DNA of 64,000 nt from Geodermatophilus nigrescens (GTDB lineage Bacteria; Actinomycetota; Actinomycetes; Mycobacteriales; Geodermatophilaceae), in the NCBI RefSeq assembly GCF_900129495.1, contig NZ_FQVX01000002.1, positions 1-64,000 on the forward strand, given 5' to 3'. Shown one piece after another: positions 18,190 through 64,000 of the stretch. The notes under the pieces were generated by a model, which saw only the letters and a program-made list of their open reading frames with translations, searched no databases and was not told the origin of the DNA. The position numbers and the translations under genes were made by a program. Numbering within the stretch: the first letter of the stretch is position 1; the number at the start of each line of letters is the position of its first letter.

Positions 18190-18193
<4 letters not shown>
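17051..18193 (+). CDS. Glycosyltransferase family 4 protein (GT-B fold)
   Basis: A 380-residue cytoplasmic glycosyltransferase. The N-terminal Rossmann lobe starts VAEVLATSTGGVGTHLRSVL; a linker VSAPALPPP separates it from the nucleotide-sugar lobe with VLAVGRLHPQKGYDVLLDA, AIAGDGPLEAEL and the E-x7-E type region LPSRWEARSLTAQEALRAGTPLV. This is the GT1/GT4 PimA-like class, whose donor is often GDP-mannose or UDP-sugar; the exact donor is unknown. It overlaps both neighbours and belongs to the envelope-glycan module between steB and pyrG. Confidence 0.88.
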
Positions 18194-22311
<4,118 letters not shown>

Positions 22312-44873: not shown

Positions 44874-46418
44874 TCAGCCCGCCGGGGCCGGGTCCTGCGC
44901 GTCGTCCGACGGGTCGTCGTCGAAGTGCAGCGGCTCGGTCCGGCCGGGCATGGCCAGCACCGCCAGCGCGATGACGACGGCGGTCACGGCGGTCGCGACG
45001 AACACGCCGTGCGAGGCGGCGTGCAGGCTCTCCCGGGCGAAGTCGGCGACGGCCCCGCCCTGCCCGAGCGCCGCCGTCGTGCTGTCGACGTCGGTGGGCA
45101 CCTCGCCGTCGAGCCCTGCCGGCGGGGCGGCGAAGCGCGCGGCGAGGGTGGTGTTGGCGATGGCGCCGAACACCGCCGCGCCGAGGGCCGAGCCCATCGA
45201 GCGGGAGAACATGTTGGTGGCGGTGACGACGCCGCGACGGTCCCAGCCGACCACCGACTGCACCGCGACGATCAGCGGCGACGACGACAGGCCGAGGCCC
45301 AGGCCGGTGACGAACATCCAGGCGCCGACCTCCCACAGGGAGGCGTCGGGGCCGAGGAACGCCGTCCCGGCCGTGCCGACCAGCACGAGGGCGACGCCGA
45401 GCAGCGCGGTGGTGCGGAACCCCAGCCGCAGGTAGACGCGGCCGGCGAGGCTCGCCGCGACGGGCCAGCCGAGGGTGAGGGCGGCGAGGGCGAAGCCGGC
45501 CTCCAGCGCGCTCGCGCCGAGCACGCCCTGTGCCCAGGTGGGCAGGTAGGAGCTCAGGCCGATGAGCAGCGCGCCCAGGCCGAGGGCGGCGACGTTGCCG
45601 CTGGCCAGGATGCGGCGGCGCAGCACCCACAGCGGCAGCACGGGCTCGGCGGCCCGCCGCTCGACCAGCGCGAACGCGGCCAGGAGCGCGACCGCCGTCG
45701 CGAGGACCGCGATGCCGGGCGCGGACGCCCACGCCCAGGCGTTGCCGCCCTCGAGCAGGCCGAGGACCAGCAGCGCGGCACCGGCGGACAGCAGGACGGC
45801 GCCGGCGACGTCGAGGCGGTGGGCGCTCCGCTCGACCTTCTCCGTCCAGCGGCGGGACAGGGCCCAGAACGCGAGCGCGCCCAGCGGCAGGTTGATCAGG
45901 AAGATCCAGCGCCAGGAGAGGGCGTCGCTGAACAGGCCGCCGAGGGTGGGGCCGAGCACCGAGGAGATGCCCCACACCGAGGCGAGGTAGCCCTGGACGC
46001 GGGCGCGCTCCTCGACGGTGTAGATGTCGCCGATGACGGTGATGCCCATCGGCTGGACGGCGCCGGCGCCGATGCCCTGCAGCGCCCGGCCCACGATCAG
46101 CGCCGGCATCGACCACGCCAGCCCGCAGAACAGGGACGCGGCGACGAACACCGCGATGCCGAACAGGAGCACCGGCTTGCGGCCGTGCACGTCGGCGAGC
46201 TTGCCGTAGACCGGCACCGTCACCGCCTGCGTGAGCAGGTAGACGCTGAACAGCCAGGGGAACTGGCTGAACCCGCCGAGGTCGTCGACGACGGCCGGGA
46301 CGGCGGTGGCGATGATCGTGCTGTCGAGCGCGATGAGGGCGGTGCTGAGCATGACCGCCCCGAGCACGGGCCCGCGCTCGGATCGGAGTCCCACCGCGGC
46401 GCGGGTACCGGTTGTCAC
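44874..46418 (-). CDS. MFS drug/solute exporter, DHA2 (EmrB/QacA) type
   Basis: About 514 residues with 14 predicted membrane helices, the DHA2 layout. Motif A is GKLADVHGRKPVLL, motif D1/C-type regions include LIALDSTIIATAVP in helix 1 and GRALQGIGAGAVQP in helix 4. The C-terminal cytoplasmic end is acidic. It is a proton-driven exporter; the substrate is unknown. The start is uncertain: GTG 46418 lies within an inverted repeat, while ATG 46451 would add 11 residues. The upstream frame runs into tRNA-Pro, so longer starts are excluded. Confidence 0.87.
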   Translation of the reverse strand: MTTGTRAAVGLRSERGPVLGAVMLSTALIALDSTIIATAVPAVVDDLGGFSQFPWLFSVYLLTQAVTVPVYGKLADVHGRKPVLLFGIAVFVAASLFCGLAWSMPALIVGRALQGIGAGAVQPMGITVIGDIYTVEERARVQGYLASVWGISSVLGPTLGGLFSDALSWRWIFLINLPLGALAFWALSRRWTEKVERSAHRLDVAGAVLLSAGAALLVLGLLEGGNAWAWASAPGIAVLATAVALLAAFALVERRAAEPVLPLWVLRRRILASGNVAALGLGALLIGLSSYLPTWAQGVLGASALEAGFALAALTLGWPVAASLAGRVYLRLGFRTTALLGVALVLVGTAGTAFLGPDASLWEVGAWMFVTGLGLGLSSSPLIVAVQSVVGWDRRGVVTATNMFSRSMGSALGAAVFGAIANTTLAARFAAPPAGLDGEVPTDVDSTTAALGQGGAVADFARESLHAASHGVFVATAVTAVVIALAVLAMPGRTEPLHFDDDPSDDAQDPAPAG

Positions 46419-46432
46419 GAGCAACTGTGACA
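46413..46432. promoter_or_regulatory. Inverted repeat at the MFS exporter start
   Basis: TGTCAC (46413-46418) and GTGACA (46427-46432) are perfect 6-base arms eight bases apart, overlapping the GTG start of the exporter gene. It looks like a dimeric repressor operator. No regulator gene lies adjacent, so the partner is unknown. Confidence 0.4.
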
Positions 46433-46539
46433 CCTCGGGGTGGCCGGGCATTCCCGCGCCCGACCACCGCGGAGGGCGGCCGACGGCGTGCGGTAACCTC
46501 GTCGGCGCAGCGATCGGGCGGTGCGAGCCGCCCGGCGCT

Positions 46540-47553: not shown

Positions 47554-48807
47554 TCAGCGGTCGCGCAGGCCGAGCAGGCGGTCGAGCACGTCGCCGGCGC
47601 GCAGGCCGTCGTGCTCGAACTCGTTGGTGACCCAGGTGCGCACGTTGCCGACGGCGTCCGCCGTCTGCAGCGACAGGTCCGCGTCGACGTACATGTCGTC
47701 GAAGTAGACGACGGCGTCGACCGGCACCTCGTTGGCCGCCAGCCGCGCCGGGTCGTACAGCGGCGGGTGCTCCGGCAGTGCGGCGAGCGCGTGCGCGGCG
47801 TCCCGGAAGGGCCGCAGCGAGGCGATCTCGTCGAACATCCAGGGGTAGACCATCTCGCCGGTGAACGGCAGGGGGCGCAGGTCGGGGGAGAGGTCGGGCC
47901 CGCGCTCGGCCTCGGCGGCCCAGCCGGTGGCGCCCTGCCCGCTGCCGTAGATGCTCTCGTGCAGCACCGCGTAGAGCGGGTTGTCCCAGTACGACGTGCG
48001 CCGGGCGACCTCGTCGAGGAAGCCGGCGGACGGCTCGCCGTCGACCAGCGCCTCGTCGAAGAGCCAGTGCAGCTGCTCGGCGCCGGTCCCGGTGCCCAGC
48101 GCGTGGCCGAGGGTCTGCAGCCGGCGCACGGTGAGCCGGTCACCGTCGGGGAGCCGGACGTCCTCGGCGGCCAGCAGGTCGGCGACCGCGGCCACCCGGT
48201 CGACGTCGCCGGGGAACCGCTCGTAGAAGCGGCGGGTCTTCGCGGCCACCCGCGGGCCGGTGCGCCGGTACACCTCGCGCGCGTCCGCCGTCAGGCCCGG
48301 CAGCCCGCCGGTGACCAGGCAGCGGTCGAGCGCCTGCGGGGCCCGCGAGAGGTAGGTGAGGGTGAGGAAGCCGCCGTAGCTCTGGCCGAGCGTCGTCCAG
48401 CGGCGGCCGCCGTAGAGCGATGCCCGCACGTGCTCGGCGTCGGCGACGATCGAGTCGGCCCGGAAGGCCATGAGGTGGGCGGCGGCCGCCGCCGGGTCGG
48501 TGAGGGCGCCGATCCGCCGGGCGGTCACCGGGGTGCTCCGGCCGGTGCCCCGCTGGTCGAGCAGCACCACCCGGAAGTCCCGCAGCGCCCGGTCGACCCA
48601 GTCGCCGCGCCCGACCGGCCGCGGTCCCTTGCCGCCGGGCCCGCCCTGCAGGAACAGCAGCAGCGGCAGGTCGTCGGCGTCCCGGGACGGGCGGACGAGC
48701 TCCCGCACGAAGACGTCGATCGTCGCGCCGTCGTCGGCGTCCCAGTGCAGCGGCACGGGCACCGTGTGCTCGCGCACCCGCATGCCGGGCAGGTCGTACT
48801 CGGTCAC
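47554..48807 (-). CDS. Alpha/beta hydrolase, proline iminopeptidase-like (S33)
   Basis: A 417-residue cytoplasmic protein. The oxyanion HGGP equivalent is LFLQGGPGGKGP (about 51-62), DQRGTGRST follows, and the nucleophile is Ser143 in LGQSYGGFLTL. The C-terminal part provides candidate Asp (VYFDDMYVDAD) and His (EFEHDGLR). This layout fits proline iminopeptidases of family S33, which remove N-terminal proline from peptides; related ester/amide hydrolases are possible. GTG 48807 start; no signal peptide. Confidence 0.87.
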   Translation of the reverse strand: MTEYDLPGMRVREHTVPVPLHWDADDGATIDVFVRELVRPSRDADDLPLLLFLQGGPGGKGPRPVGRGDWVDRALRDFRVVLLDQRGTGRSTPVTARRIGALTDPAAAAAHLMAFRADSIVADAEHVRASLYGGRRWTTLGQSYGGFLTLTYLSRAPQALDRCLVTGGLPGLTADAREVYRRTGPRVAAKTRRFYERFPGDVDRVAAVADLLAAEDVRLPDGDRLTVRRLQTLGHALGTGTGAEQLHWLFDEALVDGEPSAGFLDEVARRTSYWDNPLYAVLHESIYGSGQGATGWAAEAERGPDLSPDLRPLPFTGEMVYPWMFDEIASLRPFRDAAHALAALPEHPPLYDPARLAANEVPVDAVVYFDDMYVDADLSLQTADAVGNVRTWVTNEFEHDGLRAGDVLDRLLGLRDR

Positions 48808-48907: not shown

Positions 48908-50302
48908 TCAGCCGGGGTACGGCCGGTTGAACCGCGGCGGGGTGTAGCCGACGTAGCGGGGCGCCGGGTCGGCCCCGAGCTCCGCAGCCCGGGCGTTCAT
49001 GGCCTGCGGCGACGTCGCCGGCCAGGAGCCGCTCTCGAGGCGGTCGCCCATCGTGCGCAGCGCCGCCTGCTGCTCGGCCCCCGAGAACGTGCAGTGGCCG
49101 ACGGACTCGACGTACGTCTGCCGCAGGAGCCGGTTCGCCCCCTCCCGCCGCACCCGGTCCTCGTAGGACTGCTGCTGCGCGACGGTCGAGATCTGGTCGC
49201 CGGTGCCGGACACCGTGAGGACCGGCACCTGCAGGTCCCCGTCGAGGACGATGCCCCGTGCGAAGCGCTCCACCGCGGCGGGGTCCGCGGCGATGCGCGG
49301 GGCCGCGGCGAGGGCGTCCAGGTCGGCCCCGAGGTCGAGCCCGGCCGCCGCGTACAGCTCGCGGACGGCGCGGCGCAGCTCCGGGTCGGCCCGGCGCAGC
49401 TGCTCGGCGTAGTCGACGCCGGTGTTCCACGACGGGTTGCCGCCGACGACCGCGGTGATCTGCCGCCGGCTGCTCATCGCCTGCCCGACGTAGGGCAGCG
49501 GCCCGCCGGCGAGGGCGAGGTAGGCGCCCTCCTGCAGTGCCGCGGCGTCGCGCGGGTCTGGGGGCGGCGGCGCCGTCCCGTCCGGCCGGACGCCCCAGGC
49601 GGGCAGCTGGCCGATCGCGGCGGCCAGCGCGATGCGCGCCCGGCCCTCCGCCGTCTGCTGTGCGGCCGCGAGGGCGTCGATCCACGCCCGCTGGGCACCC
49701 GCGACGTCGGCGGGGACGTCGACGACCGGCAGGCCCGGTGCCACCAGGTGCTCGAGCACGAAGACGGTGTCGAGCTTCTGGTTCCACTGCCCGACCGAGC
49801 CGCCGAGCCCGCCGCAGAACGGCACGGCCGCGTCGAAGACCTCGGGGTGGACCTGGGCGACCCCGGCGGACACGAACCCGCCCATCGAGGTGCCGGAGGC
49901 GATCGCGTACCGCGCCGGGCCGTAGGCCTCCTCGAACCGGGCCAGCGCCTCGGCCTGGTTGTCGATGGCCGACGCGATGTCCCAGCCGGTCACCGCGCGG
50001 GTGGTGCCGCCGCGGGCCACGCCGTCGGACAGCAGGCGGGCCGTGAGCTCCTGCGCCGGGCCGGGGCCGGCGAAGTCGAGGGCGACCACGACCGTGCCGT
50101 CCCAGTCGGCCGGCACGACGAACTCGTAGGGCGTGCCGTCCTCGAGGGTCCCCGAGATGCAGGTCGGCCGGTCGGGGGAGCCGGGCAGGCAGGGCGTGCC
50201 GCCGGGCGCGGCCGGTGCGGCGGTGGCCGTGCCGGTGCCCAGGACGGTGGCCGCGGCGAGGGCGGCCGTCAGGGTCCGCACGGTCGTGGTGCGTGAGAGC
50301 AC
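48908..50302 (-). CDS. Secreted alpha/beta hydrolase (DUF6351/esterase-like), Ser-His-Asp type
   Basis: A 464-residue exported protein. Signal peptide about 1-29 (TLTAALAAATVLGTGTATA). The nucleophile is Ser139 in ASGTSMGGF; Asp in SGTGDQIST and His in VGHCTFSG near the C-terminus complete a catalytic triad, and four Cys may form disulphides. The family resembles secreted esterases or S9/S28-like hydrolases, but I cannot name the substrate; the DUF assignment is tentative. GTG 50302 has GGAGGA about eight bases upstream, better than ATG 50317. It is divergent from the PaaX-like genes with 219 bases between, in which I see no gene. Confidence 0.82.
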   Translation of the reverse strand: MLSRTTTVRTLTAALAAATVLGTGTATAAPAAPGGTPCLPGSPDRPTCISGTLEDGTPYEFVVPADWDGTVVVALDFAGPGPAQELTARLLSDGVARGGTTRAVTGWDIASAIDNQAEALARFEEAYGPARYAIASGTSMGGFVSAGVAQVHPEVFDAAVPFCGGLGGSVGQWNQKLDTVFVLEHLVAPGLPVVDVPADVAGAQRAWIDALAAAQQTAEGRARIALAAAIGQLPAWGVRPDGTAPPPPDPRDAAALQEGAYLALAGGPLPYVGQAMSSRRQITAVVGGNPSWNTGVDYAEQLRRADPELRRAVRELYAAAGLDLGADLDALAAAPRIAADPAAVERFARGIVLDGDLQVPVLTVSGTGDQISTVAQQQSYEDRVRREGANRLLRQTYVESVGHCTFSGAEQQAALRTMGDRLESGSWPATSPQAMNARAAELGADPAPRYVGYTPPRFNRPYPG

Positions 50303-50521
50303 GTCGTGTTCCTCCACGTCGAGGCGATGGGACGGGCGAGGGGAAGGGATGGGGCGGCCGACTCCGTGTCGGCCGGAGCCCCTGTGACCGGCATTACTGC
50401 CGCATGTTTGGACGAGCGTTCAGCGATGTGTCGTCCGTGTCAACCCGGTCGGGGGGTGGTCCCGGCGGCCCCGGGACGTACGGTGGGTGCTCGCCGAGCC
50501 AGCCGAGGACGGACGAGACAC

Positions 50522-51523
50522 ATGACGCCGATCGACCTCCCCCGGAACCAGACGGGGCCCGAGCCGCAGCTGCTCCTGACGTCGCTGCTGGGCGACTTCT
50601 GGTACTGGCGGGACGAGCACATCCCCTCCAGCGCCCTCGTCCGGCTGCTGGCGGAGTTCGGCACCACCGCCGACGGCGCCCGTGCGGCGATGCGCCGGCT
50701 GGCATCCCGGGGGCTGCTCACCGTCTCCCGCAGCGGCCGGACCACCGCCTACGGCATCCCGCCGCGGACCTCGGAGGTCATCGTCCGGCGCACCCACCGC
50801 CTGCTGACCTTCGGGGCGTCGGCGCCGCGGTGGGACGGGAGCTGGACGGTCGTCGCCTTCTCCGTGCCCGAGCAGTCGCGGGAGCTGCGCGGTGCCCTGC
50901 GGGCCCGCCTGCGGGTGCTGCGCTTCGCCGCCCTCTACGACGGCGTGTGGGTGTCCCCGCACGACAGCGGGGCGGCCGCGCGCAGGCTGCTCGACGAGCT
51001 CGGCGTCGAGACGGCCACCGTGCTGCGCTCCACCGAGGTGCCCGGGGCCGGGCGGCTCGGCAGCCCGCGGTCGGCCTTCGACCTCGAGCCGCTGGTCAAG
51101 GAGTACCGGCAGTTCGTCGAGCGCTACGAGCCGCTGCTGGCCGCCGCCGCGGCGGGCCGGATCGGTCCGGCCGACGCCCTGCGCGCCCGGACCGAGCTCC
51201 GGGTCGACTGGCGCCACTTCCCGGAGACCGATCCCGACATGCCGGCCGAGCTCCTGCCCGCCGACTGGCCGCGGGCGCGGGCGCAGCGGGTCTTCGTCGA
51301 GATCTACGACCGGCTCGGGCCCCTGGCCGAGATGCGCTTCCGCGAGGTGCTGGCGCAGTCGGACCCGGACCTCGCCGCGCTGGCCCGCCACCACGACTCC
51401 CGGACCGTGGCCGAGCTGTTCGCCCAGCTCGGCGACCCGCAGCCCACCGGGGGCACGCCGTTCGAGCGGGCGGTCGAGGAGCGCCGGCTGCGCGAGGCCG
51501 CACCGCGGGGCCGTGGGCTCTGA
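50522..51523 (+). CDS. PaaX-family transcriptional regulator (first copy)
   Basis: A 333-residue PaaX-like repressor. An N-terminal winged helix (about 15-75: LLLTSLLGDFWYWRDEH, TTADGARAAMRRLASRGLL) is followed by the Cas2-like middle domain (WDGSWTVVAFSVPEQSR, LRVLRFAALYDGVWVSP) and the PaaX_C domain with ELLPADWPRARAQ. PaaX binds phenylacetyl-CoA in E. coli; relatives sense other acyl- or aryl-CoA. ATG 50522 follows GAGG. It is 72 bases upstream of a second PaaX-like gene and before the CoA-related operon, so it probably controls that operon. Confidence 0.88.
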   Translation: MTPIDLPRNQTGPEPQLLLTSLLGDFWYWRDEHIPSSALVRLLAEFGTTADGARAAMRRLASRGLLTVSRSGRTTAYGIPPRTSEVIVRRTHRLLTFGASAPRWDGSWTVVAFSVPEQSRELRGALRARLRVLRFAALYDGVWVSPHDSGAAARRLLDELGVETATVLRSTEVPGAGRLGSPRSAFDLEPLVKEYRQFVERYEPLLAAAAAGRIGPADALRARTELRVDWRHFPETDPDMPAELLPADWPRARAQRVFVEIYDRLGPLAEMRFREVLAQSDPDLAALARHHDSRTVAELFAQLGDPQPTGGTPFERAVEERRLREAAPRGRGL

Positions 51524-51595: not shown

Positions 51596-52447
51596 GTGAG
51601 CGCGGAGCCGGCGGCGCCCGACGTCCCGGCGGTGCCGGCCGGCGCCGCCCGGCCGCAGGCCCTCCTGCTCACGCTCCTCGGCCGGCACGTCCTCGGCCGT
51701 GCCGTCCTCGTGTCGCAGACCAGCGTCTCGGAGGTGATGGCGCGGGTCGGTGTCTCCGACCCCGCCACCCGCTCGGTCCTGCTCCGGATGGAGAAGCGCG
51801 GCCTGCTCCGCCGGGAGCGGCGCGGCCGGCCCGTGTTCCTGGGGCTGACCCCGCGCTCCCGGGAGCTGCTCGCGGACGGCCAGCGGCGGCTGTGGGCGGC
51901 GGCTGCGGTCAGCGGCCACTGGGACGGCGCCTGGACGCTGCTGACCTTCTCGCTGCCCGAGGCCTGGCAGCGCCAGCGCCACCAGATCCGGTCCCGCCTG
52001 CAGTGGGCGGGCTTCGGCATGCTGCAGGGCGGGCTGTGGATCGCGCCGTCCGCCCTCGACGTCGGGCAGGTGCTGGCCGGCGTCGAGGGGGCCGACCGGG
52101 TCAGGGCGTTCGTCGCCCGCCCCGGTCCCGACGTCGACGTCCCCGAGATGGTGCGGGACGCCTGGGACCTCGCCGAGCTGCGGGCCCGGTACGACGAGTT
52201 CCTCGCCCGCTGGGGCGACTGCGGGCCCGCCGGGGCCGCCGGCGACGCGCTCGCCGCCCAGCTGGCCCTCACCACCGACTGGCTGGCCGTCCTGCGCAGC
52301 GACCCGCGCCTGCCGCTGGAGCACCTCCCCGCCGACTGGCCCGCCCGCCGGGCGCAGGAGGTCTTCCGCCGGTGGCACGCCGAGCTCGACCCGCCGGCGC
52401 GCGCCGCCGCGGCCGACATCCTGGTGACGGCGCCCGACCTGTCCTGA
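51596..52447 (+). CDS. PaaX-family transcriptional regulator (second copy)
   Basis: A 283-residue PaaX-like regulator with the same architecture: N-terminal winged helix (SVSEVMARVGVSDPATRSVL), the Cas2-like part (WDGAWTLLTFSLPEAWQRQ, LQWAGFGMLQGGLWIAP) and PaaX_C with HLPADWPARRAQEVF. It is clearly divergent from the first copy, so the two probably bind different sites or ligands or form a hetero-pair. GTG 51596 start. It lies immediately upstream of the promoter at 52506. Confidence 0.87.
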   Translation: MSAEPAAPDVPAVPAGAARPQALLLTLLGRHVLGRAVLVSQTSVSEVMARVGVSDPATRSVLLRMEKRGLLRRERRGRPVFLGLTPRSRELLADGQRRLWAAAAVSGHWDGAWTLLTFSLPEAWQRQRHQIRSRLQWAGFGMLQGGLWIAPSALDVGQVLAGVEGADRVRAFVARPGPDVDVPEMVRDAWDLAELRARYDEFLARWGDCGPAGAAGDALAAQLALTTDWLAVLRSDPRLPLEHLPADWPARRAQEVFRRWHAELDPPARAAAADILVTAPDLS

Positions 52448-52604: not shown

Positions 52605-53534
52605 ATGCGCCACACCACTGCTCGACTCGCGCTGCCCCTGGCCGTCTCCATGGCCGTCCTGGCCGCCTGTGGCGGGTCGGGGGAGACCTCGTCGGCCGCC
52701 CCGGGGCCGGACCCGGCGGCGGGACCCTCCGGCGGCGTCGACACCGAGGCGGAGCTGTACGACCGGCTCCCGCAGGAGATCAAGGACGCGGGGGAGATCG
52801 TGTTCGCGGGCGACTCGCACCCGCCCTACCGCACGGTCGGCGCCGACGGGCAGACCGTGACGGGGATCGACGCCGACCTGCAGGCCGCGCTCTCCGAGGT
52901 GCTCGGCGTGCCCATCCGGACGGAGATCACCACGGGTCTCCCGGCGATGCTCTCCGGGATGCTGTCCGGGCGCTACGACGCCTTCAACGGGCCGGTGCGG
53001 ACCACCCCGGAGCGCGAGGCGGAGTTCGACGCCGTCGTCTGGATGACGACCGTGACCTCCTACGTCGTCCCCGAGGGCAGCGACGCCGGCATCGAGGACA
53101 GCGGCGACCTGTGCGGCAAGACGGTCGCCGGCACCGAGGGGTCGGTGACCCAGGAGATGGTCACCCGGCTCTCGCAGTGGTGCGAGGGGCAGGGGGAGGG
53201 GCCGGTGGAGTTCACCGGGCTCGCCGACACCAACGCCACGATCCTCGCCGTCGACGCCGGCCGGGTCGACGCCGCCGCGGTCACCGAGGCCGCCGCCATC
53301 GACATCGTCAGCGCCAGCGAGGACTACTACTACGTCTCGCAGACCGAGGACCAGGGCGCCGGCGTGGACCAGATGGCCCTGCTGACCCCGAAGTCCAACG
53401 AGCTCGGTCCCGTGGTGTTCGAGGCCTTCCAGGTCCTCTTCGAGAACGGCGACTACGAGCGCGTGATGGAGGAGTGGAACCTCCAGGACGTCACCATCGA
53501 CGAGCCCCTCCTCAACCCCGCCACCGAGCAGTGA
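52605..53534 (+). CDS. ABC transporter substrate-binding lipoprotein, polar amino acid type (family 3)
   Basis: A 309-residue solute-binding protein. The lipobox LAAC gives Cys22. Family 3 features: [54 protein letters not shown] and the hinge region around [15 protein letters not shown]. Two Cys (in DLCGKTV and QWCEGQ) may form a disulphide. The family usually binds amino acids or small carboxylates; the neighbours suggest a carboxylic acid later joined to CoA. ATG 52605 has GGAGA upstream. First gene of the operon. Confidence 0.9.
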
Positions 53535-53557: not shown

Positions 53558-54496
53558 ATGACCACCACGCACCCCGCTCCCGACCCCGCCGTCCAGGAGC
53601 GACCACCGGACGACGTCGCGGCCGCCCGGCCCCGGTTCCGCCCGGGGCGCTGGCTGCTGGGGGCCGTGCTCCTCGTGGTCGGCGCGCAGCTGGCCACCTT
53701 CCTCGTGGGCAACGAGCGCTTCGAGTGGGACGTCGTCGGGGAGTACCTCTTCCACCCGACCGTGCTGCAGGGCCTCGGCATGTCCGTGATGCTCACGGTG
53801 ATCGCCATGGTCGTCGGGTCGGCGCTCGGCGTCGTGCTCGCCGCCGGGCAGCTCTCCGACTTCGGGCCGGTCCGGTGGGCGTCGACCCTCTACGTCGGCG
53901 TCTTCCGCGGCATCCCGCCGCTGGTCCAGCTCATCTTCTGGTACAACCTCGCGTTCCTGGTGCCCGACGTGTCGATCGGCATCCCGTTCGGCCCGACGTT
54001 CGCGTCGTGGTCGGCCAACGAGGTCATCACCCCGCTCACCGCGGCCCTGATCGGCCTGACCCTGCACGAGGCGGCCTACATGGCCGAGATCGTCCGCGCC
54101 GGCATCCTCGCCGTGGACCCCGGCCAGCGCGACGCCGCCCGCGCCATGGGCTTCAACGGCCGCCAGGCCTTCTTCAAGGTCGTCCTGCCGCAGGCGATGC
54201 GGGTGATCATCCCGCCCACCGGCAGCCAGTTCATCAGCCTGCTGAAGGGCACCTCGCTGGTCAGCGTCATCGCCATGAGCGACCTGCTGCACTCGGTCCA
54301 GGTCATCTACAACCGCACCTACGACGTCATCCCGATGCTGGTCGTCGCCTGCATCTGGTACCTGACCGTCGTCACGGTCCTCTCGCTCGGCCAGAAGCGC
54401 CTCGAGCGCCACTTCGGCCGCGGCCACGACCGCACCGCCACCGTCGCCGGCGGCCGCCGCCGGCCCCGCCTCGGCCTCGCCGGAGCGCGGGCATGA
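53558..54496 (+). CDS. Polar amino acid-type ABC transporter permease
   Basis: A 312-residue permease of the HisMQ/GlnP class. After a 45-residue cytoplasmic start, the domain has [36 protein letters not shown] and the EAA-type loop [20 protein letters not shown] followed by [19 protein letters not shown] 53558 follows AGGGGA; a GTG at 53531 overlapping the upstream stop is less likely. As a single permease gene it probably acts as a homodimer. Confidence 0.92.
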
Positions 54497-55317
54497 CCGC
54501 CCCGGGGAGCGGGCCCGCACGCCCGGTGCTGTCCGTCCGCGGGCTGCGGAAGGTCTTCGGCGACCACGTCGCGCTCGACGGCGTCGACCTCGACGTGCAC
54601 GAGGGCGAGGTCGTCGTCGTCCTCGGGCCGTCCGGGTCGGGCAAGTCCACCCTGGTCCGCTGCGTCCACCAGCTCGAGTCGGTCGACGGCGGCGCGGCCT
54701 ACCTGGACGGCGAGCTGCTCGGCTACGAGCAGCACCGCGGCCACCTGCGGCCCCTGCCCGAGGCCCGCGTCGCCCGCCAGCGCCGCCGGATGGGCATGGT
54801 CTTCCAGCAGTTCAACCTGTTCCCGCACTGGACGGTCCTGCGCAACATCACCGAGGCCGCCGTCAAGGTGCACGGCCAGCGTCCCGAGGAGGCCCGCCGC
54901 CGGGCGGTGGAGCTGCTGGAGCGGACCGGCCTGGCCGACAAGCACCAGGCCCACCCCAAGCAGCTCTCCGGCGGTCAGCAGCAGCGGGTGGCCATCGCCC
55001 GCGCCGTCGCCACCGACCCGCGGATCATGCTCTTCGACGAGCCGACCAGCGCCCTGGACCCGGAGCTCGTCGACGAGGTGCTCTCGGTGGTCCGCGACCT
55101 CGCGAGGACCGGGATGACGATGGTCGTCGTCACCCACGAGATGGACTTCGCCCGCGAGGTGGCCGACCGCTGCGTCTTCATGGACCGCGGCCGCGTCGTC
55201 GAGGTGGGGACGCCGCAGGAGGTCTTCGAGGCCCCGCGCTCCCCGCGCCTGCAGGCCTTCCTCACCCGTTTCGCCCAGCGGCAGCAGCGCGCCGACGCCG
55301 CGGCTCCCGCCGTCTGA
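54493..55317 (+). CDS. Polar amino acid-type ABC transporter ATP-binding protein
   Basis: A 274-residue GlnQ/HisP-like ATPase. Walker A GPSGSGKS at 45-52, Q-loop [17 protein letters not shown], signature [14 protein letters not shown], Walker [16 protein letters not shown]-loop VVTHEMDFA. The ATG overlaps the permease stop (ATGA), so the transporter is one translational unit. Confidence 0.94.
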
Positions 55318-55333: not shown

Positions 55334-56485
55334 GTGGACCACCCCGTGACGGTCATGGCCGTCGGCGACCTGGTGCTCGACGAGCCCGATCCCGACAGCT
55401 TCTTCGCCCCGTCGACCGACACCCTGCGGCGCGCCGACCTGGCCATCGGCCACGTCGAGGTGCCGCACAGCACCACGACCACCAGCGCCAGCACCGACGT
55501 CCCGGCGCCCCCGGCCGACCCCGAGCACCTCAAGGCGGTCACCGCCGCCGGCTTCGACGTCGTCACCCTCGCCGGCAACCACGTCTACGACGCCGGCACC
55601 GAGGGCGTCGCCGACACCATCGCCCACGCCCGCGCGGCCGGGCTGCTCACCGCCGGCGCCGGCATGGACCTCGAGCAGGCGCGCACCCCGGCCGTCGTCG
55701 AGCGCGGCGGGCTGCGGATCGCGGTGCTCAGCTACAACTGCGTGGGACCGAAGGAGTCCTGGGCGACGTCGCGCAAGGCCGGCTGCGCCTACGTCAAGGT
55801 GCTCACGCACTACGACCTGGAGTACGCCAACCCGGGCGGCCCGCCGACCGTCTACACCTTCGCGGCCCCGGACAGCCTGCGGCGCATGCAGGACGACGTC
55901 CGCGCGGCGGCCGCCTCCGCCGACGTCGTCTGCGTGTCCCTGCACAAGGGGATCGGCCACACGCCCGTGCACGTCGCCGACTACGAGCGGCAGGTGTCGC
56001 ACGCGGCGGTCGACGCCGGCGCGTCCGTGGTGTTCGGCCACCACGCGCACATCATGCGCGGCATCGAGGTGTACCGCGGCCGGCCGGTCTACCACGGGCT
56101 CGGCAACTTCGTGACGGTCACGCGGGCCCTCACCCCGTCCGGCGGCAACGCCGCGGAGCTGGAGGCCTGGGCGCGCAAGCGCCGCGAGATGTTCGGCTTC
56201 GCGCCCGACCCGCGCATGCCGACCTACCCCTTCCACCCGGAGAGCCGGGCCACGGCGATCGCGGTGTGCCGGTTCGGCGCGGACGGCCGGGTCGAGGCGG
56301 GCTTCGTGCCGTGCTGGATCGACGACGACGCCCGACCGGTCCCGCTGGGGCGCGGGGTGAAGGGCGAGGAGGTGGCCGGCTACGTCGAGCGCATCTCGCG
56401 CGAGGCCGGCCTGGACACGCGGTTCGAGTGGTCCGGCGACGAGGTGCTCGTCCGCGCGGCCGGCGAGGAGGTCCCCGGTGAGTGA
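55334..56485 (+). CDS. CapA-family metallophosphoesterase-like protein
   Basis: A 383-residue protein of the CapA/PgsA group. Metal-binding motifs are recognisable: VMAVGDLVLDEP, LAGNHVYDAG, VSLHKGIGH, VVFGHHAHIMRGIE and YHGLGNFV. Family members are linked to poly-gamma-glutamate capsule synthesis but many are uncharacterised phosphoesterases. Unlike PgsA it has no membrane anchor or signal peptide, so it acts in the cytoplasm. Its place between the transporter and the CoA-transferase genes suggests a metabolic role; the substrate is unknown. GTG 55334; overlaps the next gene by 8 bases. Confidence 0.85.
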   Translation: MDHPVTVMAVGDLVLDEPDPDSFFAPSTDTLRRADLAIGHVEVPHSTTTTSASTDVPAPPADPEHLKAVTAAGFDVVTLAGNHVYDAGTEGVADTIAHARAAGLLTAGAGMDLEQARTPAVVERGGLRIAVLSYNCVGPKESWATSRKAGCAYVKVLTHYDLEYANPGGPPTVYTFAAPDSLRRMQDDVRAAAASADVVCVSLHKGIGHTPVHVADYERQVSHAAVDAGASVVFGHHAHIMRGIEVYRGRPVYHGLGNFVTVTRALTPSGGNAAELEAWARKRREMFGFAPDPRMPTYPFHPESRATAIAVCRFGADGRVEAGFVPCWIDDDARPVPLGRGVKGEEVAGYVERISREAGLDTRFEWSGDEVLVRAAGEEVPGE

Positions 56486-57716: not shown

Positions 57717-58868
57717 GTGCTGGACACCGGAGCCGGCTCCGACCCCACCTGGTGGCGGGACGCCGTCGACGGCCGCCGGGACCGGGCCCGGGAGCGGGCC
57801 GCCGGCGGGGTGCCCGTGGTCGGGTACGTCGGCGCCGACGTGCCGGGAGAGCTCGTGGAGGCGGCCGGGGCCTGCCCGGTCCGGTTGTCCGGGATCCCCG
57901 GGCGGACCTCGGCCGAGGCGGACCGCCTGCTGGGCGCCGCGGTCGACCCCGCGGTGTCCTCGGTCCTGGCGCAGCTCCTCGACGGCGACTGGCGGTTCCT
58001 CACCGGGCTGGTCGTGTCCCGGGACAGCCAGGCGTCGCTCGCGCTGTTCTACGTGCTCCGGGAGCTGCGCCGGCTCGAGCCGGGGCTGCAGTTGCCGCCG
58101 GTCCACCTGCTCGACCTCCTGCACCTGCCCCGGGCGTCCACCACCCGCTACGACGCCGCCCGGGTGGCGCAGCTCGCGGAGGTGCTCGCGGGGTGGACGG
58201 GCACCGCGGTGACCGGTGACGGGCTGGCCCGCGCGGTCGCGGGCGCCCGGCGGGTGCGGTCGCTGCTGCGGGACGCCCAGCGGCTGCGCCGCGCCGACCG
58301 TCCCGGGCTGTCGGGGACCACGGCCCTGCACGTCCACGGCGCCGTGACCGCGATGCCCGGGGCGGAGGCGGCCGAGCGGCTCGGCGAGCTGCTGGCCGCC
58401 GCGGCCGCGGGCCCCGCGCTGCCCGCGCGCCCGCGCCTGTTCCTGACCGGGAGCGCCCAGGACCACGACCGGCTCTACGTCGCGGTCGAGGACGAGGGCT
58501 GGCACGTGGTGGGGGAGGACCACGACCGGGGGGACCTCGCCCTGACCGTCGACGTCCCCGGGTGGGCCGGCACGGACGAGATCGCCCGCGCCTACCAGCA
58601 CCGCGGGCCGGCGGCGGCCACCTCCTCGATCCGCGCGCACGCCGAGTGGACCGCGGCGGAGGCGGCCGCGTGCCGCGCCGACCTCCTGCTCGCCGTGGTC
58701 CGGGAGCACGACGAGGCGCCGGCCTGGGACCTGCCCGTCCAGCGGGAGCGGGCCGCGGCGCTCGGGATCGGGACGGCGGCGCTGCTGCGCCAGCCGTACG
58801 TCAGCCGCACCTCCGACGTCCGCGCGGTGCTCGCGACGGCGTCCGCCGCGACGAGGGAGTCCGCATGA
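57717..58868 (+). CDS. 2-hydroxyacyl-CoA dehydratase-like subunit (HgdB/BcrC family), cysteine-poor
   Basis: A 383-residue protein of the D-component family of 2-hydroxyacyl-CoA dehydratases and benzoyl-CoA reductases. Recognisable blocks are PVVGYVGADVPGELVEAAGA followed by CPVRLSG, the middle LVVSRDSQASLALFYVLREL and FLTGSAQDH. In characterised members, three Cys hold a [4Fe-4S] cluster; the one normally in the middle block is replaced here (SRDSQ), and only two Cys are present in total (Cys53 and one near residue 335), neither clearly at a ligand site. It starts right after the CoA-transferase stop and is coupled to the next subunit. Activity is therefore uncertain. Confidence 0.8.
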   Translation: MLDTGAGSDPTWWRDAVDGRRDRARERAAGGVPVVGYVGADVPGELVEAAGACPVRLSGIPGRTSAEADRLLGAAVDPAVSSVLAQLLDGDWRFLTGLVVSRDSQASLALFYVLRELRRLEPGLQLPPVHLLDLLHLPRASTTRYDAARVAQLAEVLAGWTGTAVTGDGLARAVAGARRVRSLLRDAQRLRRADRPGLSGTTALHVHGAVTAMPGAEAAERLGELLAAAAAGPALPARPRLFLTGSAQDHDRLYVAVEDEGWHVVGEDHDRGDLALTVDVPGWAGTDEIARAYQHRGPAAATSSIRAHAEWTAAEAAACRADLLLAVVREHDEAPAWDLPVQRERAAALGIGTAALLRQPYVSRTSDVRAVLATASAATRESA

Positions 58869-60100
58869 GCCGCCTGGCCTCGGCCACCGCCGCGACCGCG
58901 CACCAGAAGCAGTGGTTCCGCTCGATCCAGGAGCGGGTCGCCGCGGGCGAGCCGCTCGCGCTGGTCAACGCCGACGCACCGCAGGAGGTGCTCAAGGCGA
59001 TGGACATCCCGTACGTGGTCAACCAGTGGTGGGCGTCGGTCGTCTCCGCCAAGCGGCAGGCCGACGCGAGCCTGCAGGTGCTGCGCGACCGGGGGTTCCC
59101 CGACCACAGCCGGCAGTACGACGCGATCTCCCTCGGCTCGACGAGCCTCCCGCCGGAGACGGCGCCGTGGGGCGGCCTCCCGGAGCCGAGCATCGTGATC
59201 GCCGAGACCAGCGGGGACGCGGCGCGCAAGGTGTTCGACCTGTGGGCCGAGCGGCCCGGCGTCGACTTCTTCCCCTTCGAGCGGTCGTCGGCGGTCACCG
59301 CGCCCGCCCGGTGGTGGGAGCTGGTCCCGCACCGCTGGGAGGAGGCCTACGGCAGCGAGCGGCTGGACCTGATGGTCGCCGAGATCGAGGAGCTCGTGAG
59401 CTTCCTCGAGGAGCGCACCGGCAGGACCCTCGACGTCGGCCGGCTGCGGCGCGTGATGGACCTGGTCAACGAGCAGGCGGAGTGGAACCGCCGGACCCGC
59501 GACCTCCTCGCGGCGACCCGGCCGACGCCGGTGGCGGTGAACGACACCATCCCGGGCGTGATGGTCCCGCAGTGGCACCGCGGGACCGAGTGGGCCGTGG
59601 ACGCGGCCCGCCGCCTGTACGAGGAGGTCGCGGAGCTCGCCTCGTCCGGCGCCGCGCTGTGCCCGGACGAGCGCGTCCGGCTGATGTGGATCGGCCGGGG
59701 CCTCTGGTTCGACCTCGACCTGTACCGGCGCTTCCAGGAGAGCCACGGCGCGGTGTTCGTCTGGTCGATGTACCTGGCCATCGCCGCCGACGGCTACCCG
59801 CGCCACGGCGACGACCCGGTCCGGGCCCTCGCGGCGCGGTTCGCCGGCTTCACCGACCAGCTCTACACCCCGCCGTGGTCGGGGGAGTGGTACGTGAAGG
59901 AGGCCCGCGCGCACGGCGTCGACGGGGTGGTGCACCTCGTGGCCGACGACGTGCCGGCCAGCTCGTTCACGACCCGGGCGCTGGAGGACGCCGGCATCCC
60001 GGTCCTCGAGATCCGGGCCGACAACGCCGACCCGCGGGCCAGCGACCCGGACGCGCTCACCGCCGCGATCACCGGCTTCATCGACGGCCGGCTCAGCTGA
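58865..60100 (+). CDS. 2-hydroxyacyl-CoA dehydratase-like subunit (HgdA/BcrB family), lacking Fe-S cysteines
   Basis: A 411-residue partner subunit. Family blocks: PLALVNADAPQEVLKAMDIP, VVNQWWASVVSAKRQ, YDAISLGSTSLPP, GLPEPSIVIAETSGDAARKV, GVDGVVHLVADDVPASSF and the terminal IPVLEIRADNADPR. In known enzymes Cys occurs after NWAA, in a DLCSYAR-type segment and after the LL-x-x-N block; here these read WASVVSA, DHSRQYD and AETSGDA. Only one Cys remains (ALCPDE). It looks like a complete, expressed but non-Fe-S variant. The ATG overlaps the previous stop (ATGA), implying a heterodimer. No activator ATPase gene is in the window. Confidence 0.8.
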   Translation: MSRLASATAATAHQKQWFRSIQERVAAGEPLALVNADAPQEVLKAMDIPYVVNQWWASVVSAKRQADASLQVLRDRGFPDHSRQYDAISLGSTSLPPETAPWGGLPEPSIVIAETSGDAARKVFDLWAERPGVDFFPFERSSAVTAPARWWELVPHRWEEAYGSERLDLMVAEIEELVSFLEERTGRTLDVGRLRRVMDLVNEQAEWNRRTRDLLAATRPTPVAVNDTIPGVMVPQWHRGTEWAVDAARRLYEEVAELASSGAALCPDERVRLMWIGRGLWFDLDLYRRFQESHGAVFVWSMYLAIAADGYPRHGDDPVRALAARFAGFTDQLYTPPWSGEWYVKEARAHGVDGVVHLVADDVPASSFTTRALEDAGIPVLEIRADNADPRASDPDALTAAITGFIDGRLS

Positions 60101-60102: not shown

Positions 60103-61347
60103 GTGCGCCGGCCGCCGTCCTCCCTGCGCATCGGCAACTTCCGGCTCTTCTTCGCGGGACAGGTCGTCTCGAACACCGGCACCTGGTTCCAGAACCTGAC
60201 GCTGTCCCTCATCGTCCTGGAGGAGACCGGCCGGGCGAGCGCGCTGGCGCTGGTGACGGTCTGCCAGTTCACCCCGCTCCTGCTGGTCGGGATGTACGCC
60301 GGGACGCTGGCCGACCGGCGCGACGTCCGGCGGATCCTGCTCGCGACCTCCCTCGCGTCGGCGGTGGCGGTCGCGGGCCTGGCGTGGGTCGTGTCGCGGG
60401 ACCCGCTGCGGCTGCCGCTGGTGCTCGGCCTGGTGGCGGTCCTCGGGGCGGCGCAGGCCTTCGAGCGGGTGGCGGCGCAGGCCTTCGTCTACGAGCTGGT
60501 CGGGCCGGAGCGGCTGGCCAACGGCGTCGCGCTGAACACCGTGGCGGTGTCCTCGGCGCGCTCGGTCGGGCCGGCGCTGGCCGGCGTGGCCTACGGCGCG
60601 GCCGGCGGCGTCGCCTGCCTGCTCGTCAACACCGCGTCCTACCTGGTCATCGCCGGGTGCCTGGCGCGGATCGACCGCACCGCGCTGACCTCCCGGCGGG
60701 GAGACGGCGCGGCGCCACCGGGCCTCCGGGCGGCGCTGCGGGAGATCCGCGGGAACCGGCCGCTGGTCGCCGTCCTCGCCGTCAACACGGCGGTGACCGT
60801 CGGCGCGCTGAACCTCATGGTGGTGATCACCGCGATGGTCTCGCTCACCCTCGGCGGGGACGCGGAGGTGCTGGGGGCGGCCCACGCCCTCAACGCGGTG
60901 GGCGCGGTGGCCGGCGGGCTCGCCGTGTCCTCCCGCCGGCAGGTCGGCCTCACGGCCCTCGGGGTGTCCTGCGCGGGGTACGGGTGTGCGCTCGCGGTCA
61001 ACGCGGCCGCCCCGTCGGTGACGCTGTTCCTGCTCGCCGCGCCCCTGCTCGGCCTGGGGCTCGGCGCCTACCAGGGCGCCGTCAACGGTGCCGCCCAGTC
61101 CCTGGCCCCGGCCGTCCTGCTGGGCCGGGTGACGGCGCTGCTCACCCTCGGCAGCGTCGGCACGGCCCCCGTCGGCGCCCTGCTCGTGGGGGCGCTGGTC
61201 GACGCGTCGAGCGCCCGGGTCGCCATGGGCGTGGGTGCGGTCGTCTGCGCCCTCTGCGCGGTGGCCCTCGTGCTCGTCCGGCGGTCGGTCGCCGCGGGTG
61301 TCCCGGTCGGCCCGGGAGCCGTGGCGGCCGACCGCGCCGGCGCGTGA
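60103..61347 (+). CDS. MFS transporter, EntS/MFS_3 type
   Basis: A 414-residue membrane protein with about 12 helices. The start NFRLFFAGQVVSNTGTWFQN and motif A GTLADRRDVRRILL are typical of the MFS_3 (enterobactin-exporter-like) group; EVLGAAHALNAVGAV opens the second half. GTG 60103 lies two bases after the previous stop. As the last gene of the operon it may export a product or an overflow intermediate. Confidence 0.88.
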   Translation: MRRPPSSLRIGNFRLFFAGQVVSNTGTWFQNLTLSLIVLEETGRASALALVTVCQFTPLLLVGMYAGTLADRRDVRRILLATSLASAVAVAGLAWVVSRDPLRLPLVLGLVAVLGAAQAFERVAAQAFVYELVGPERLANGVALNTVAVSSARSVGPALAGVAYGAAGGVACLLVNTASYLVIAGCLARIDRTALTSRRGDGAAPPGLRAALREIRGNRPLVAVLAVNTAVTVGALNLMVVITAMVSLTLGGDAEVLGAAHALNAVGAVAGGLAVSSRRQVGLTALGVSCAGYGCALAVNAAAPSVTLFLLAAPLLGLGLGAYQGAVNGAAQSLAPAVLLGRVTALLTLGSVGTAPVGALLVGALVDASSARVAMGVGAVVCALCAVALVLVRRSVAAGVPVGPGAVAADRAGA

Positions 61348-61388: not shown

Positions 61389-61844
61389 TCAGCCGAGGAA
61401 GCGGAAGACCGGCTCGGCGATGCAGACCGGCTTGTCGCCGCCCTCGCGCTCGATGATCGCGGAGACGGTGAGCTGGTAGCCGCCCCGGACCTCCTCGACG
61501 TCGGCGAGGGTGGCGGTGAGGCGCACCTTGGAGCCGACGGGCACGGGCGCGGGGAACCGGACCTTGTTGAGCCCGTAGTTCACCGCCATGGCCGTGTCGG
61601 TCACCGTGAGGACCTGCGACCACATCGGGATGAGCAGCGACAGCGTCAGGTAGCCGTGGCCGATCGGGCCGCCGAAGGGGCTCTCGGCGTTCGCGCGCTC
61701 GACGTCGACGTGGATCCACTGGTGGTCACCGGTGGCGTCGGCGAACGTGTTGACGCGGTCCTGGGTGACCTCGATCCAGTCGCTGGTGCCGAGCTCGGTG
61801 CCCTTGAGGCCGGGCAGCTCGGCGAGGGTCGTGGTGGTGGTCAT
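61389..61844 (-). CDS. MaoC-like acyl-CoA hydratase/dehydratase
   Basis: A 151-residue hot-dog fold protein. The hydratase 2 motif is FADATGDHQWIHVD with catalytic Asp40 and His45, followed by GPIGHGYLTLSLL. It hydrates trans-2-enoyl-CoA or acts in reverse. ATG 61844 has GAGGAGA upstream and overlaps the ligase stop (ATGA). With the ligase and the amidohydrolase it forms a minus-strand operon facing the dehydratase-like operon. Confidence 0.92.
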   Translation of the reverse strand: MTTTTTLAELPGLKGTELGTSDWIEVTQDRVNTFADATGDHQWIHVDVERANAESPFGGPIGHGYLTLSLLIPMWSQVLTVTDTAMAVNYGLNKVRFPAPVPVGSKVRLTATLADVEEVRGGYQLTVSAIIEREGGDKPVCIAEPVFRFLG

Positions 61845-63388
61845 GCGGGGGTCTCCTCGGGGGTGACGTAGCGGTCGCGCAGGTCGGGTTTGCGGATCTT
61901 GCCGGTGGCGGTCTTGGGCAGCTCGGCGACGAACTCGACGTGGCGCGGCACCTTGAAGCCGGCCAGCCGGGCGCGGAGTGCGGTGCGGATCGCCTCGGGG
62001 TCCTCGGCCGATCCGGGTGCCGGGACGACGACGGCGAGGCCGACCTCGCCCCACCGCGCGTCGGGGACGCCGATGACGGCGGCCTCGAGCACGTCGGGCA
62101 GCTCGAGGAGGGCCGACTCCACCTCGGCGGGGTACACGTTCTCCCCGCCCGAGATGATCATGTCCTTGTAACGGTCGCGGATGTAGAGGTAGCCGTCCTC
62201 GTCGGTCGAGCCGGCGTCCCCGGAGTGGTACCAGCCGTCGACGATCGCGGCCGCCGTCGCCTCGGGGGCGTTCCAGTAGCCGGCCATGATGTTGGGCCCG
62301 GACAGCACGACCTCCCCGATCTCACCCGGGTCGCACTCGGTCCCGTCGGGGCGGACGACCCGCACGTCGACGAAGAACTGCGACCGGCCGGCCGAGCCGA
62401 CCTTGGCCACGGCGTCGGCGCTGTCCAGGGCGGTGCCGGCCGGTGCCGACTCGGTCATCCCGTACGCCTGCTGCACGGTGATCCCACGGTCCAGCCACGT
62501 GCGCAGGAGCGGCAGCGGGAGCGGGGCGCCGGCCGCGCCGATGGTGCGCAGCGCGGACAGGTCGACGGTGTGGAAGTCCGGCTGCCGGCTGATCGCGTCG
62601 AGCATCGTCGGGACGGCGAAGAACGACGTGACCCGCTGCTCGACGACCACCCGGAGCGTCGCCGGCGGGTCGAAGCCGCGGACCAGGACGACGCACCCGC
62701 CGCGCAGCAGCGTCGGGTTGAGCGTGCCGTTGAGCCCGCCGATGTGGAACAGCGGCGCCAGCCCCAGCGTGCGCTCGTCCGGCGTGAAGTCGAACCCGAG
62801 TATCTGGTTCATGCAGGACCACGTCATGTTGCCGTGGGTCAGCGTGGCGCCCTTGGGCCGGCCGGTCGTGCCGGACGTATACATGATCAGGCAGACGTCG
62901 TCGAGGGTGACCGGCTCGTCGCGCAGCACCGGCTCGGCGTCGGCCAGCAGGCGCTGCCAGTCGAGGGAGTCCGCGCCCCCCTCGAGCGGGGGCTCCGCGG
63001 CCGCCCAGTGGCGGACGGCGGGCACCTGCGCCCGCAGCGTGTCCGCCGTCGTCCCGTGCTCCCGCCCGTGGACGACGACGGTCGCGCCGGAGTGCTCGAG
63101 CACGTACCGGGCCTCGGGAGCGGTGAACCGGGCGTTGACCGGCACCCAGATCGCCCCGAGCTGGCCGCAGGCGTAGAGCGTCTCCAGCGCGGCCGGGTGG
63201 TTGGCGCCGAACCAGGCGACCCGGTCGCCCCGCGCCACGCCGAGGGCGTCCAGCGCCGCGGCCGCCCGGCGGACCCGGTGCGCGAACTCGCCGTGGGTGG
63301 TCGTGGTCCCCTCGAACCAGATCGCCGGCTTGCGCGGCGAGATGCGCAGCCGGCGCTCGGGCCAGCTGCCCAGGCCCGCGTTCCTCAC
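61841..63388 (-). CDS. Acyl-CoA synthetase (AMP-forming ligase)
   Basis: A 515-residue member of the ANL superfamily. The ATP-binding loop is YTSGTTGRPKG (170-180), then QQAYGMTES, YHSGDAG, IRDRYKDMIISGGENVYPAEVE and the C-terminal catalytic Lys497 in TATGKIRKPDLR. It activates a carboxylic acid to its CoA ester through an acyl-adenylate; fatty, aromatic and alicyclic acids are all possible. GTG 63388 overlaps the stop of the upstream amidohydrolase gene. Confidence 0.93.
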   Translation of the reverse strand: MRNAGLGSWPERRLRISPRKPAIWFEGTTTTHGEFAHRVRRAAAALDALGVARGDRVAWFGANHPAALETLYACGQLGAIWVPVNARFTAPEARYVLEHSGATVVVHGREHGTTADTLRAQVPAVRHWAAAEPPLEGGADSLDWQRLLADAEPVLRDEPVTLDDVCLIMYTSGTTGRPKGATLTHGNMTWSCMNQILGFDFTPDERTLGLAPLFHIGGLNGTLNPTLLRGGCVVLVRGFDPPATLRVVVEQRVTSFFAVPTMLDAISRQPDFHTVDLSALRTIGAAGAPLPLPLLRTWLDRGITVQQAYGMTESAPAGTALDSADAVAKVGSAGRSQFFVDVRVVRPDGTECDPGEIGEVVLSGPNIMAGYWNAPEATAAAIVDGWYHSGDAGSTDEDGYLYIRDRYKDMIISGGENVYPAEVESALLELPDVLEAAVIGVPDARWGEVGLAVVVPAPGSAEDPEAIRTALRARLAGFKVPRHVEFVAELPKTATGKIRKPDLRDRYVTPEETPA

Positions 63389-64000
63389 CGCTGGGCGGCC
63401 GGGGCGAGGTTCAGCGCGCGGATCGCGTTCTCCTTCATGATCAGCGGCCGGACCTCGTCCTTGATCTCGAGGGTCTCGAAGTCGCGGATCCACCGCTCGG
63501 GGCGGATGAGCGGGTAGTCCGAGCCGAAGAGCACCTTCCTCTTCAGGAGCCCGTTGGCCGCCTTCACCAGCTGCGGCGGGAAGTACTTCGGCGACCAGCC
63601 GGACAGGTCGATGTAGACGTTGGCCTTGTGGGTGGCCACCGAGATGGCGGCGTCCTGCCAGGGCACCGACGGGTGGGCCATGATGATCGTGAGGCCGGGG
63701 AAGTCGGCGGCGACGTCGTCGAGCAGCATCGGGTCGGAGTAGCGCAGCTTGATGCCGCGCCCGCCGGGCAGGCCGGCCCCGATGCCGGTCTGCCCGGTGT
63801 GGAACAGCGCCGGGACGCCGAGGCTCTCCAGCTCCTCGTAGAGCGGGTAGTGCCGGCGGTCGTTCGGCTCGAAGTCCTGGAAGCTGGGGTGGAACTTGAA
63901 GCCCCGCACGCCGTGCGACTCGACCAGCCGGCGGGCGGTGCGGATGCCGGCCCGGCCGCGTGCGGGGTCGACCGAGCCGAACGGGATGAGCACGTCGGGG
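63385..64000 (-). CDS. Amidohydrolase family 2 protein, C-terminal part (cut by window end)
   Basis: At least 204 residues of an amidohydrolase of the ACMSD/Amidohydro_2 type; the N-terminus with the first metal-binding HxH lies beyond base 64000. Visible: GVRGFKFHPSFQDF, a metal His in ALFHTGQTG, TIIMAHPSVPWQ, and the metal Asp in KVLFGSDYPLIRP. Such enzymes are decarboxylases or hydrolases of aromatic or cyclic acids and often sit in CoA-ester pathways. It is coupled to the ligase gene. Confidence 0.88.
   Translation of the reverse strand, partial: PDVLIPFGSVDPARGRAGIRTARRLVESHGVRGFKFHPSFQDFEPNDRRHYPLYEELESLGVPALFHTGQTGIGAGLPGGRGIKLRYSDPMLLDDVAADFPGLTIIMAHPSVPWQDAAISVATHKANVYIDLSGWSPKYFPPQLVKAANGLLKRKVLFGSDYPLIRPERWIRDFETLEIKDEVRPLIMKENAIRALNLAPAAQR

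Follow-up and report, generated by a model that had tools for sequence, protein, structure and literature searches.

A conserved branch of the 2-hydroxyacyl-CoA dehydratase/benzoyl-CoA reductase superfamily in Actinobacteria without iron–sulfur cluster ligands, possibly an acyl-CoA enzyme of different chemistry

In anaerobes, the 2-hydroxyacyl-coenzyme A (CoA) dehydratases and benzoyl-CoA reductases carry out radical chemistry at very low potential, for which their superfamily is known. The closest described systems are the class I benzoyl-CoA reductase BzdNO(PQ) of Aromatoleum (PDB 8s02), the (R)-2-hydroxyisocaproyl-CoA dehydratase HadBC with HadA and HadI (PDB 3o3m), and the double-cubane cluster protein DCCP (PDB 6eno). 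As described for BzdNO (PMC11971306), Cys95, Cys128 and Cys380 bind the cluster of BzdO, and Cys36, Cys73, Cys100, Cys263, Cys293 and Cys327 the double cubane of BzdN; Tyr97, Tyr298 and Gln274 of BzdO contact the thioester oxygen, with Glu65 and His131 proposed to serve in acid/base catalysis. Here we describe a pair of genes from Geodermatophilus nigrescens (contig NZ_FQVX01000002.1, positions 1 to 64,000; this whole stretch of 64,000 nucleotides is called the window below), the products of which, alpha and beta, represent a distinct and conserved non-iron–sulfur branch of this superfamily. On balance we favour the view that they form a heterodimeric acyl-CoA enzyme of benzoyl-CoA reductase/2-hydroxyacyl-CoA dehydratase descent which has lost both clusters and the activator.

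An initial annotation made from the letters of the DNA had described the two genes as intact and translationally overlapping members of this family, and the analysis bears this out. Both reading frames are open, the ATG of beta at 58865 lies on the stop codon of alpha with a 4-base overlap, and the pair extends from 57717 to 60100. Against the HGD-D profile (PF06050, cut-off 28.4 bits) alpha scores 92.6 bits and beta 134.7 bits, and no other protein of the 4.74 Mb genome matches. The AlphaFold models, with predicted local distance difference test scores of 92.8 and 89.3, are nearest to BzdN for alpha and to HadB/BzdO for beta; that is, the BzdNO/HadBC fold with its two unlike subunits is recovered for each single chain. 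Beta is very conserved, with a mean column identity of 70% over 40 sequences from many genera and 100 of 411 columns invariant, several of them within pocket motifs. Alpha is far below this (40% over 43 sequences), and its 14 invariant columns out of 383 comprise six aspartates (77, 103, 133, 268, 332 and 338) and include Arg56 and Arg329. Relative to locus L004, nonsynonymous and synonymous divergence (dN/dS, Nei–Gojobori method) is estimated at 0.18/0.55 in beta, 0.41/0.61 in alpha and 0.19/0.54 in the adjoining CaiB gene, so that the ratio is well below 1 for beta and CaiB and less so for alpha (about 0.68). With intact genes and such ratios, the pair does not look like decaying pseudogenes, an outcome that the annotation had named as fatal to its proposal.

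Ligand positions were read in an alignment of 85 beta and 84 alpha cysteine-less rows (window included), five alpha–beta fusions and 16 canonical pairs drawn from other actinobacterial genomes. Wrong boundaries led to the exclusion of L003 and L048 for both subunits and of L067 for alpha, while the canonical set does not comprise the single-subunit types (L108, L123–L152 and L163). Alignments A3 and A4 contain out-of-frame rows (L112 in both, L120 in A4), which were ignored; the aligned rows include the identical sequences of L005 and L115 and the nearly identical ones of L029 and L122, and the alpha part of the fused rows aligns poorly, with gaps at some columns. All 16 canonical rows have cysteine at alpha columns 77, 104, 298 and 332 and at beta columns 83, 118 and 363, and in profile alignments to PDB chains the cysteines of BzdN and HadC fall on alpha 77, 104 and 332 (hand-counted). 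The only cysteines of the window proteins, at 53 and 319 in alpha and at 266 in beta, coincide with none of these columns: alpha carries Asp, Ser and Asp at 77, 104 and 332, and beta carries Arg at 83, Asp at 118 and Asp/Pro at 362/363. Hence beta lacks the three cysteine ligands of the catalytic [4Fe-4S] cluster found in O/B-type subunits and alpha lacks those of the electron-transfer cluster found in N/C-type subunits; alignment has not brought back any cysteine at a cluster position. The annotation had rightly picked the SRDSQ motif of alpha, whose Ser104 aligns with a canonical cluster cysteine, as well as DHSRQYD (residue 83) and AETSGDA (Asp118) in beta. Its third beta site, WASVVSA, has to be given up, because column 60 holds cysteine in only 10 of the 16 canonical rows and corresponds to no BzdO ligand; the third ligand column lies instead at 362/363, within VADDVPAS. 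Two further ligand columns of alpha, Asp77 and Asp332, had gone unremarked.

The same substitutions recur throughout the branch. Asp is found at alpha 77 and alpha 332 in 84/84 cysteine-less rows and at beta 118 in 85/85; alpha 298 is Pro in 77/84; beta 83 is mostly Glu (51 rows), Arg (16) or Leu (10), with others besides; and beta 363 is variable next to Asp362, which is present in 85/85. The middle position of alpha, column 104, is Cys in 56, Ser in 26, Thr in one and Arg in one of the 84 rows. Loss of the cysteines is thus complete in the window pair, as had been claimed, but across the family a single ligand cysteine of alpha is often retained. Among loci L083–L107, which lie outside this alignment, six were read separately: beta shows the same residues in 6/6, save at the variable columns 83 and 363, and alpha reads Asp, Cys and Asp in L089 and L094, has gaps at some ligand columns in L090, L091 and L092, where the stretch is cut, and is an unreadable fragment in L085. 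Since every row, 84 for alpha and 85 for beta, shares the Asp replacements, sequencing error or chance can be ruled out.

The activator had been reported as absent from the window, and this absence extends to the whole genome: at 99.77% completeness it contains no match to PF01869 or TIGR00241, and so lacks the ATP-dependent activator of a functional dehydratase or reductase. In the window's order, 24 of 397 genomes have a beta relative, and all 24 were tested. TIGR00241 was found in none of the 18 genomes with a cysteine-less pair or fused form (beta ligand columns read in all, for 12 in the alignment and for 6 separately; alpha not fully readable in 4), but in 6/6 of those with a cysteine pair, directly adjoining it. 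These last six loci (L119–L121 and L165–L167), each with a canonical pair and an adjacent activator, would be odd if the organisms are aerobic.

That the cysteine-less homologues form a group apart, for which the annotation had asked, is seen in both trees. In the beta tree (21 cysteine-less, 5 fused and 16 canonical rows, of 106) a branch with 100/100 support parts the cysteine-less and fused rows from the canonical ones, and in the alpha tree (20, 5 and 16, of 105) the canonical rows make up one side of a 100/100 branch; since the trees are unrooted, they show the separation of the types and not the direction of change. The distribution is patchy: within the window's genus 2 of 26 genomes have the pair, and within its class 8 of 394, the window's own included and two of them remote. 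In five relatives from the window's bacterial family (L109–L113), alpha and beta are joined in one open frame by a proline-rich linker, which supports joint action of the subunits; CaiB and a family 3 importer are their neighbours. In literature searches aimed at this family, the titles and first lines of abstracts of the open-access papers listed (for broad searches, those ranked highest) contain no description of cysteine-less members.

Residues that contact the substrate's carbonyl in BzdO have counterparts in beta. By hand-counted alignment with the BzdO residues named above, Tyr85, Tyr303 and Arg278 fall on Tyr97, Tyr298 and Gln274, Gln54 stands at the position of Glu65, and His131 aligns three residues past Asp118. 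Tyr85 and Tyr303 are invariant in cysteine-less, fused and canonical rows alike, and Arg278 and Gln54 are invariant in the 90 cysteine-less and fused rows, the 16 canonical rows having Ile and Glu. These 90 rows also share an invariant Asp37, in a loop matching Ser44–Trp46 of BzdO. In the model of beta, Asp118 begins a helix, Tyr303 is at a helix start, and Asp37, Arg278 and Asp362 are in loops that follow strands, a predicted placement such as would be expected for a pocket.

The pair belongs to a tight plus-strand unit (Table 1), described earlier as a strong operon, and this operon is conserved. Counts of neighbours refer to the best 80 of 324 loci with a beta relative in a species collection, Actinobacteria by their titles, and depend on identity cut-offs. 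The full importer–CapA–CaiB order is found upstream on one strand in 65 of the 80 loci, and CaiB by itself precedes the pair in the same orientation in 79, the remaining locus being a short contig. The family 3 importer is missing from 13 loci, 9 of which have a different importer in the stretch (SBP_bac_1/8 in 6, family 5 in 3), and six further loci have both the family 3 and the SBP_bac_1/8 type. CaiB has the features of a class III CoA-transferase: in alignment with E. coli Frc, its Asp182 falls on Asp169, which we take to be the catalytic aspartate, and the VDVSM motif, also considered for this role, was ruled out by the same alignment. The CapA protein weakly matches the model of the lasso-peptide epimerase MslH (107 bits, cut-off 700), and a PaaX homologue accompanies 56/80 loci. 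A simple scan, poorly suited to DNA of high G+C content, revealed no promoter-like site or terminator inside the unit.

Table 1. Genes of the pair and of its surroundings in the window (loci: homologue present among the 80 loci)
Feature	Coordinates	Strand	Remarks
PaaX-type regulator	50306..51523	+	true start probably internal, Pfam match from residue 90
Second PaaX-type regulator	51596..52447	+	just upstream of unit
ATP-binding cassette (ABC) importer, substrate-binding protein (SBP) family 3	52605..53534	+	by profile; 67/80 loci
ABC importer permease (BPD_transp_1)	53558..54496	+	67/80 loci
ABC importer ATPase	54493..55317	+	67/80 loci
CapA/PGA_cap family protein	55334..56485	+	71/80 loci
Class III (CaiB/BaiF) CoA-transferase, PF02515	56478..57716	+	365 bits; stop abuts alpha start
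Alpha subunit, BzdN/HadC-type HGD-D protein	57717..58868	+	383 amino acids, GTG start
Beta subunit, BzdO/HadB-type HGD-D protein	58865..60100	+	411 amino acids, ATG start
MFS_3 transporter, optional	60103..61347	+	directly 3′ of beta; 18/80 loci
MaoC-type hydratase, optional	61389..62054	-	N-terminus of frame probably spurious; 10/80 loci
AMP-dependent acyl-CoA ligase, optional	61841..63493	-	N-terminus uncertain; 9/80 loci
Amidohydrolase_2 family protein, optional	63385..63993	-	reaches window end; 9/80 loci

With the ligands gone and yet one gene set conserved in many actinobacteria, the pair probably performs a different chemistry on CoA-bound acids, much as the annotation had supposed when it called the genes functional with another chemistry; it is probably fed by the class III CoA-transferase and probably relies on acid/base catalysis. 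The host genera are mostly aerobes, and giving up both clusters and the activator could allow the pair to work there. In the scheme that we propose, the ABC importer would bring in a small carboxylic acid, which CapA may process and which the CaiB-type transferase would load onto CoA. The thioester would then bind in beta, where Tyr85, Tyr303 and Arg278 would hold its carbonyl oxygen; Arg278, which stands in place of Gln or Ile, would help to stabilise this oxygen in an enolate-like state. Candidates for proton transfer on the enolate-like intermediate are Asp37, Gln54, Asp118, Asp362 and His350, which surround the emptied cluster pocket, and the outcome might be elimination, isomerisation or epimerisation. 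Alpha would be an obligatory partner in which a charged pocket replaces the cluster, and the product could pass on via the MaoC, ligase and amidohydrolase proteins encoded next to the operon in the window. Activity as a 2-hydroxyacyl-CoA dehydratase or benzoyl-CoA reductase by the known mechanism cannot be what the pair provides. Moreover, protein bases cannot remove the beta-proton without a radical route (PMC11574389), which makes a classical (R)-2-hydroxyacyl-CoA dehydration unlikely. A more far-reaching proposal, which we advance tentatively, is that in this branch of the superfamily an O2-sensitive radical iron–sulfur scaffold became an acyl-CoA enzyme of aerobic life, its active site being new (of acid/base type or with a metal bound by Asp), for a reaction new to enzymology in the catabolism of soil compounds.

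Several points weigh against the favoured interpretation. Glu65, an acid/base group proposed for BzdO, is lost in beta, so that the catalytic residues named above are guesses from conservation. Asp77, Asp103 and beta Asp118 are absent from the five fused relatives, and Asp77 and Asp118 therefore cannot be universally catalytic. Alpha evolves fast, as its dN/dS and its column identity indicate, and might be mainly structural. The models are of single chains without ligands. Finally, an alignment to MbdO places the middle beta cysteine at Gly117 rather than Asp118 and the last one at Asp362, and columns 118 and 362/363 are thus certain only to one residue.

Other explanations have to be weighed. 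One is that the clusters were swapped for divalent metal ions (Mg, Mn, Zn or Fe), which would act as Lewis acid and polarise the substrate, with ligands from alpha Asp77, Ser/Cys104 and Asp332 (Asp41, Asp103, Asp133 and Asp268 standing at neighbouring strand ends) and from beta Asp118 and Asp362. It would account for the fact that two of the four canonical cysteine columns of alpha are among its 14 invariant ones (chance about 0.008 if random), that column 104 is Cys or Ser in 82/84 rows, and that the six invariant aspartates are modelled where strands end or helices begin. However, the aspartates missing from the fused group argue against a universal metal site there, and the invariant Arg56 and Arg329 suggest that the Asp residues may form salt bridges filling the cavity instead; we regard a metal site as unlikely. 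Another possibility, to which we give little credence, is that the pair is not an enzyme and instead serves the CoA-transferase as a sensor, a scaffold or a partner that binds acyl-CoA: the constant company of CaiB and the loose conservation of alpha would fit, but the number of invariant columns in beta, several of them in pocket motifs, would be unusual for a mere scaffold. It is slightly less probable still that another redox cofactor, e.g. a flavin, took over and that the pair is still a reductase or dehydratase. Some members of the family, e.g. 2-hydroxyglutaryl-CoA dehydratase, are reported with flavin (PMC11574389), and the MaoC, short-chain dehydrogenase/reductase (SDR) and ligase genes of some loci would fit an enoyl-CoA product, but no widely conserved reductase or flavoprotein is found among the annotated neighbour clusters. 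As for decayed or mis-sequenced genes of a normal iron–sulfur dehydratase, the low cysteine count and the patchy presence in the genus are outweighed by open frames, identical Asp replacements, a strongly conserved beta and a conserved operon, which already contradict this extremely improbable explanation.

Clues to the substrate come from the surroundings of the pair. The solute-binding protein has no PDB relative at E 1e-8, and hence no ligand can be named. Among the 80 loci, CocE/NonD hydrolases are found in 16, P450 proteins in 9 and SDR proteins in 8, each counted alone. Together with PaaX, a tannase-like esterase, MaoC, the ligase and the amidohydrolase, these point to the catabolism of organic acids or esters and to no single compound. 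A carnitine-like substrate, considered because of an L-carnitine-dehydrogenase-like gene below cut-off in L031 and 16 Trp in beta, was set aside, one locus being too little. Upstream, a frame at 48908–50317 (-) encodes a secreted-looking alpha/beta hydrolase that weakly matches tannase-like DUF6351 (23.7 bits, cut-off 22.4), with relatives in 28/80 loci, and possibly this enzyme releases the substrate of the operon. A second alpha/beta hydrolase (47554–48807, -) lies beside an MFS_1 transporter (44874–46451, -); in 14 other loci, relatives of this transporter follow beta within about 2 kb. Elsewhere in the window, a frame of 797 residues at 18190–20583 (+), without Pfam match at 1e-5, adjoins a stretch with a G+C content of about 0.81.

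An actinobacterial branch without clusters and activator would illustrate the re-use of a radical iron–sulfur scaffold, and where the name ‘2-hydroxyacyl-CoA dehydratase’ rests on PF06050 alone, the reaction should not be assumed. The conserved unit (importer, CapA, CoA-transferase, alpha, beta and often PaaX) opens both substrate and function to direct testing. Compared with the described systems, the pair differs from BzdNO in having no cysteine at any alignable [4Fe-4S] column of BzdO or double-cubane column of BzdN, in the changes of Glu65 to Gln54 and of Gln274 to Arg278, and in the lack of any activator family member in the genome. Compared with HadBC, it has neither the cluster ligands nor an activator of the HadI type, and radical dehydration as in HadBC is therefore impossible for it. 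DCCP, unlike the pair, binds a double-cubane cluster and has its own ATPase reductase, DCCP-R. In the bzd genes the N-type precedes the O-type, an order seen in the canonical pairs studied here as in the cysteine-less one. Both subunits share the fold of BzdNO, and beta matches the tyrosines that bind the thioester oxygen in BzdO.
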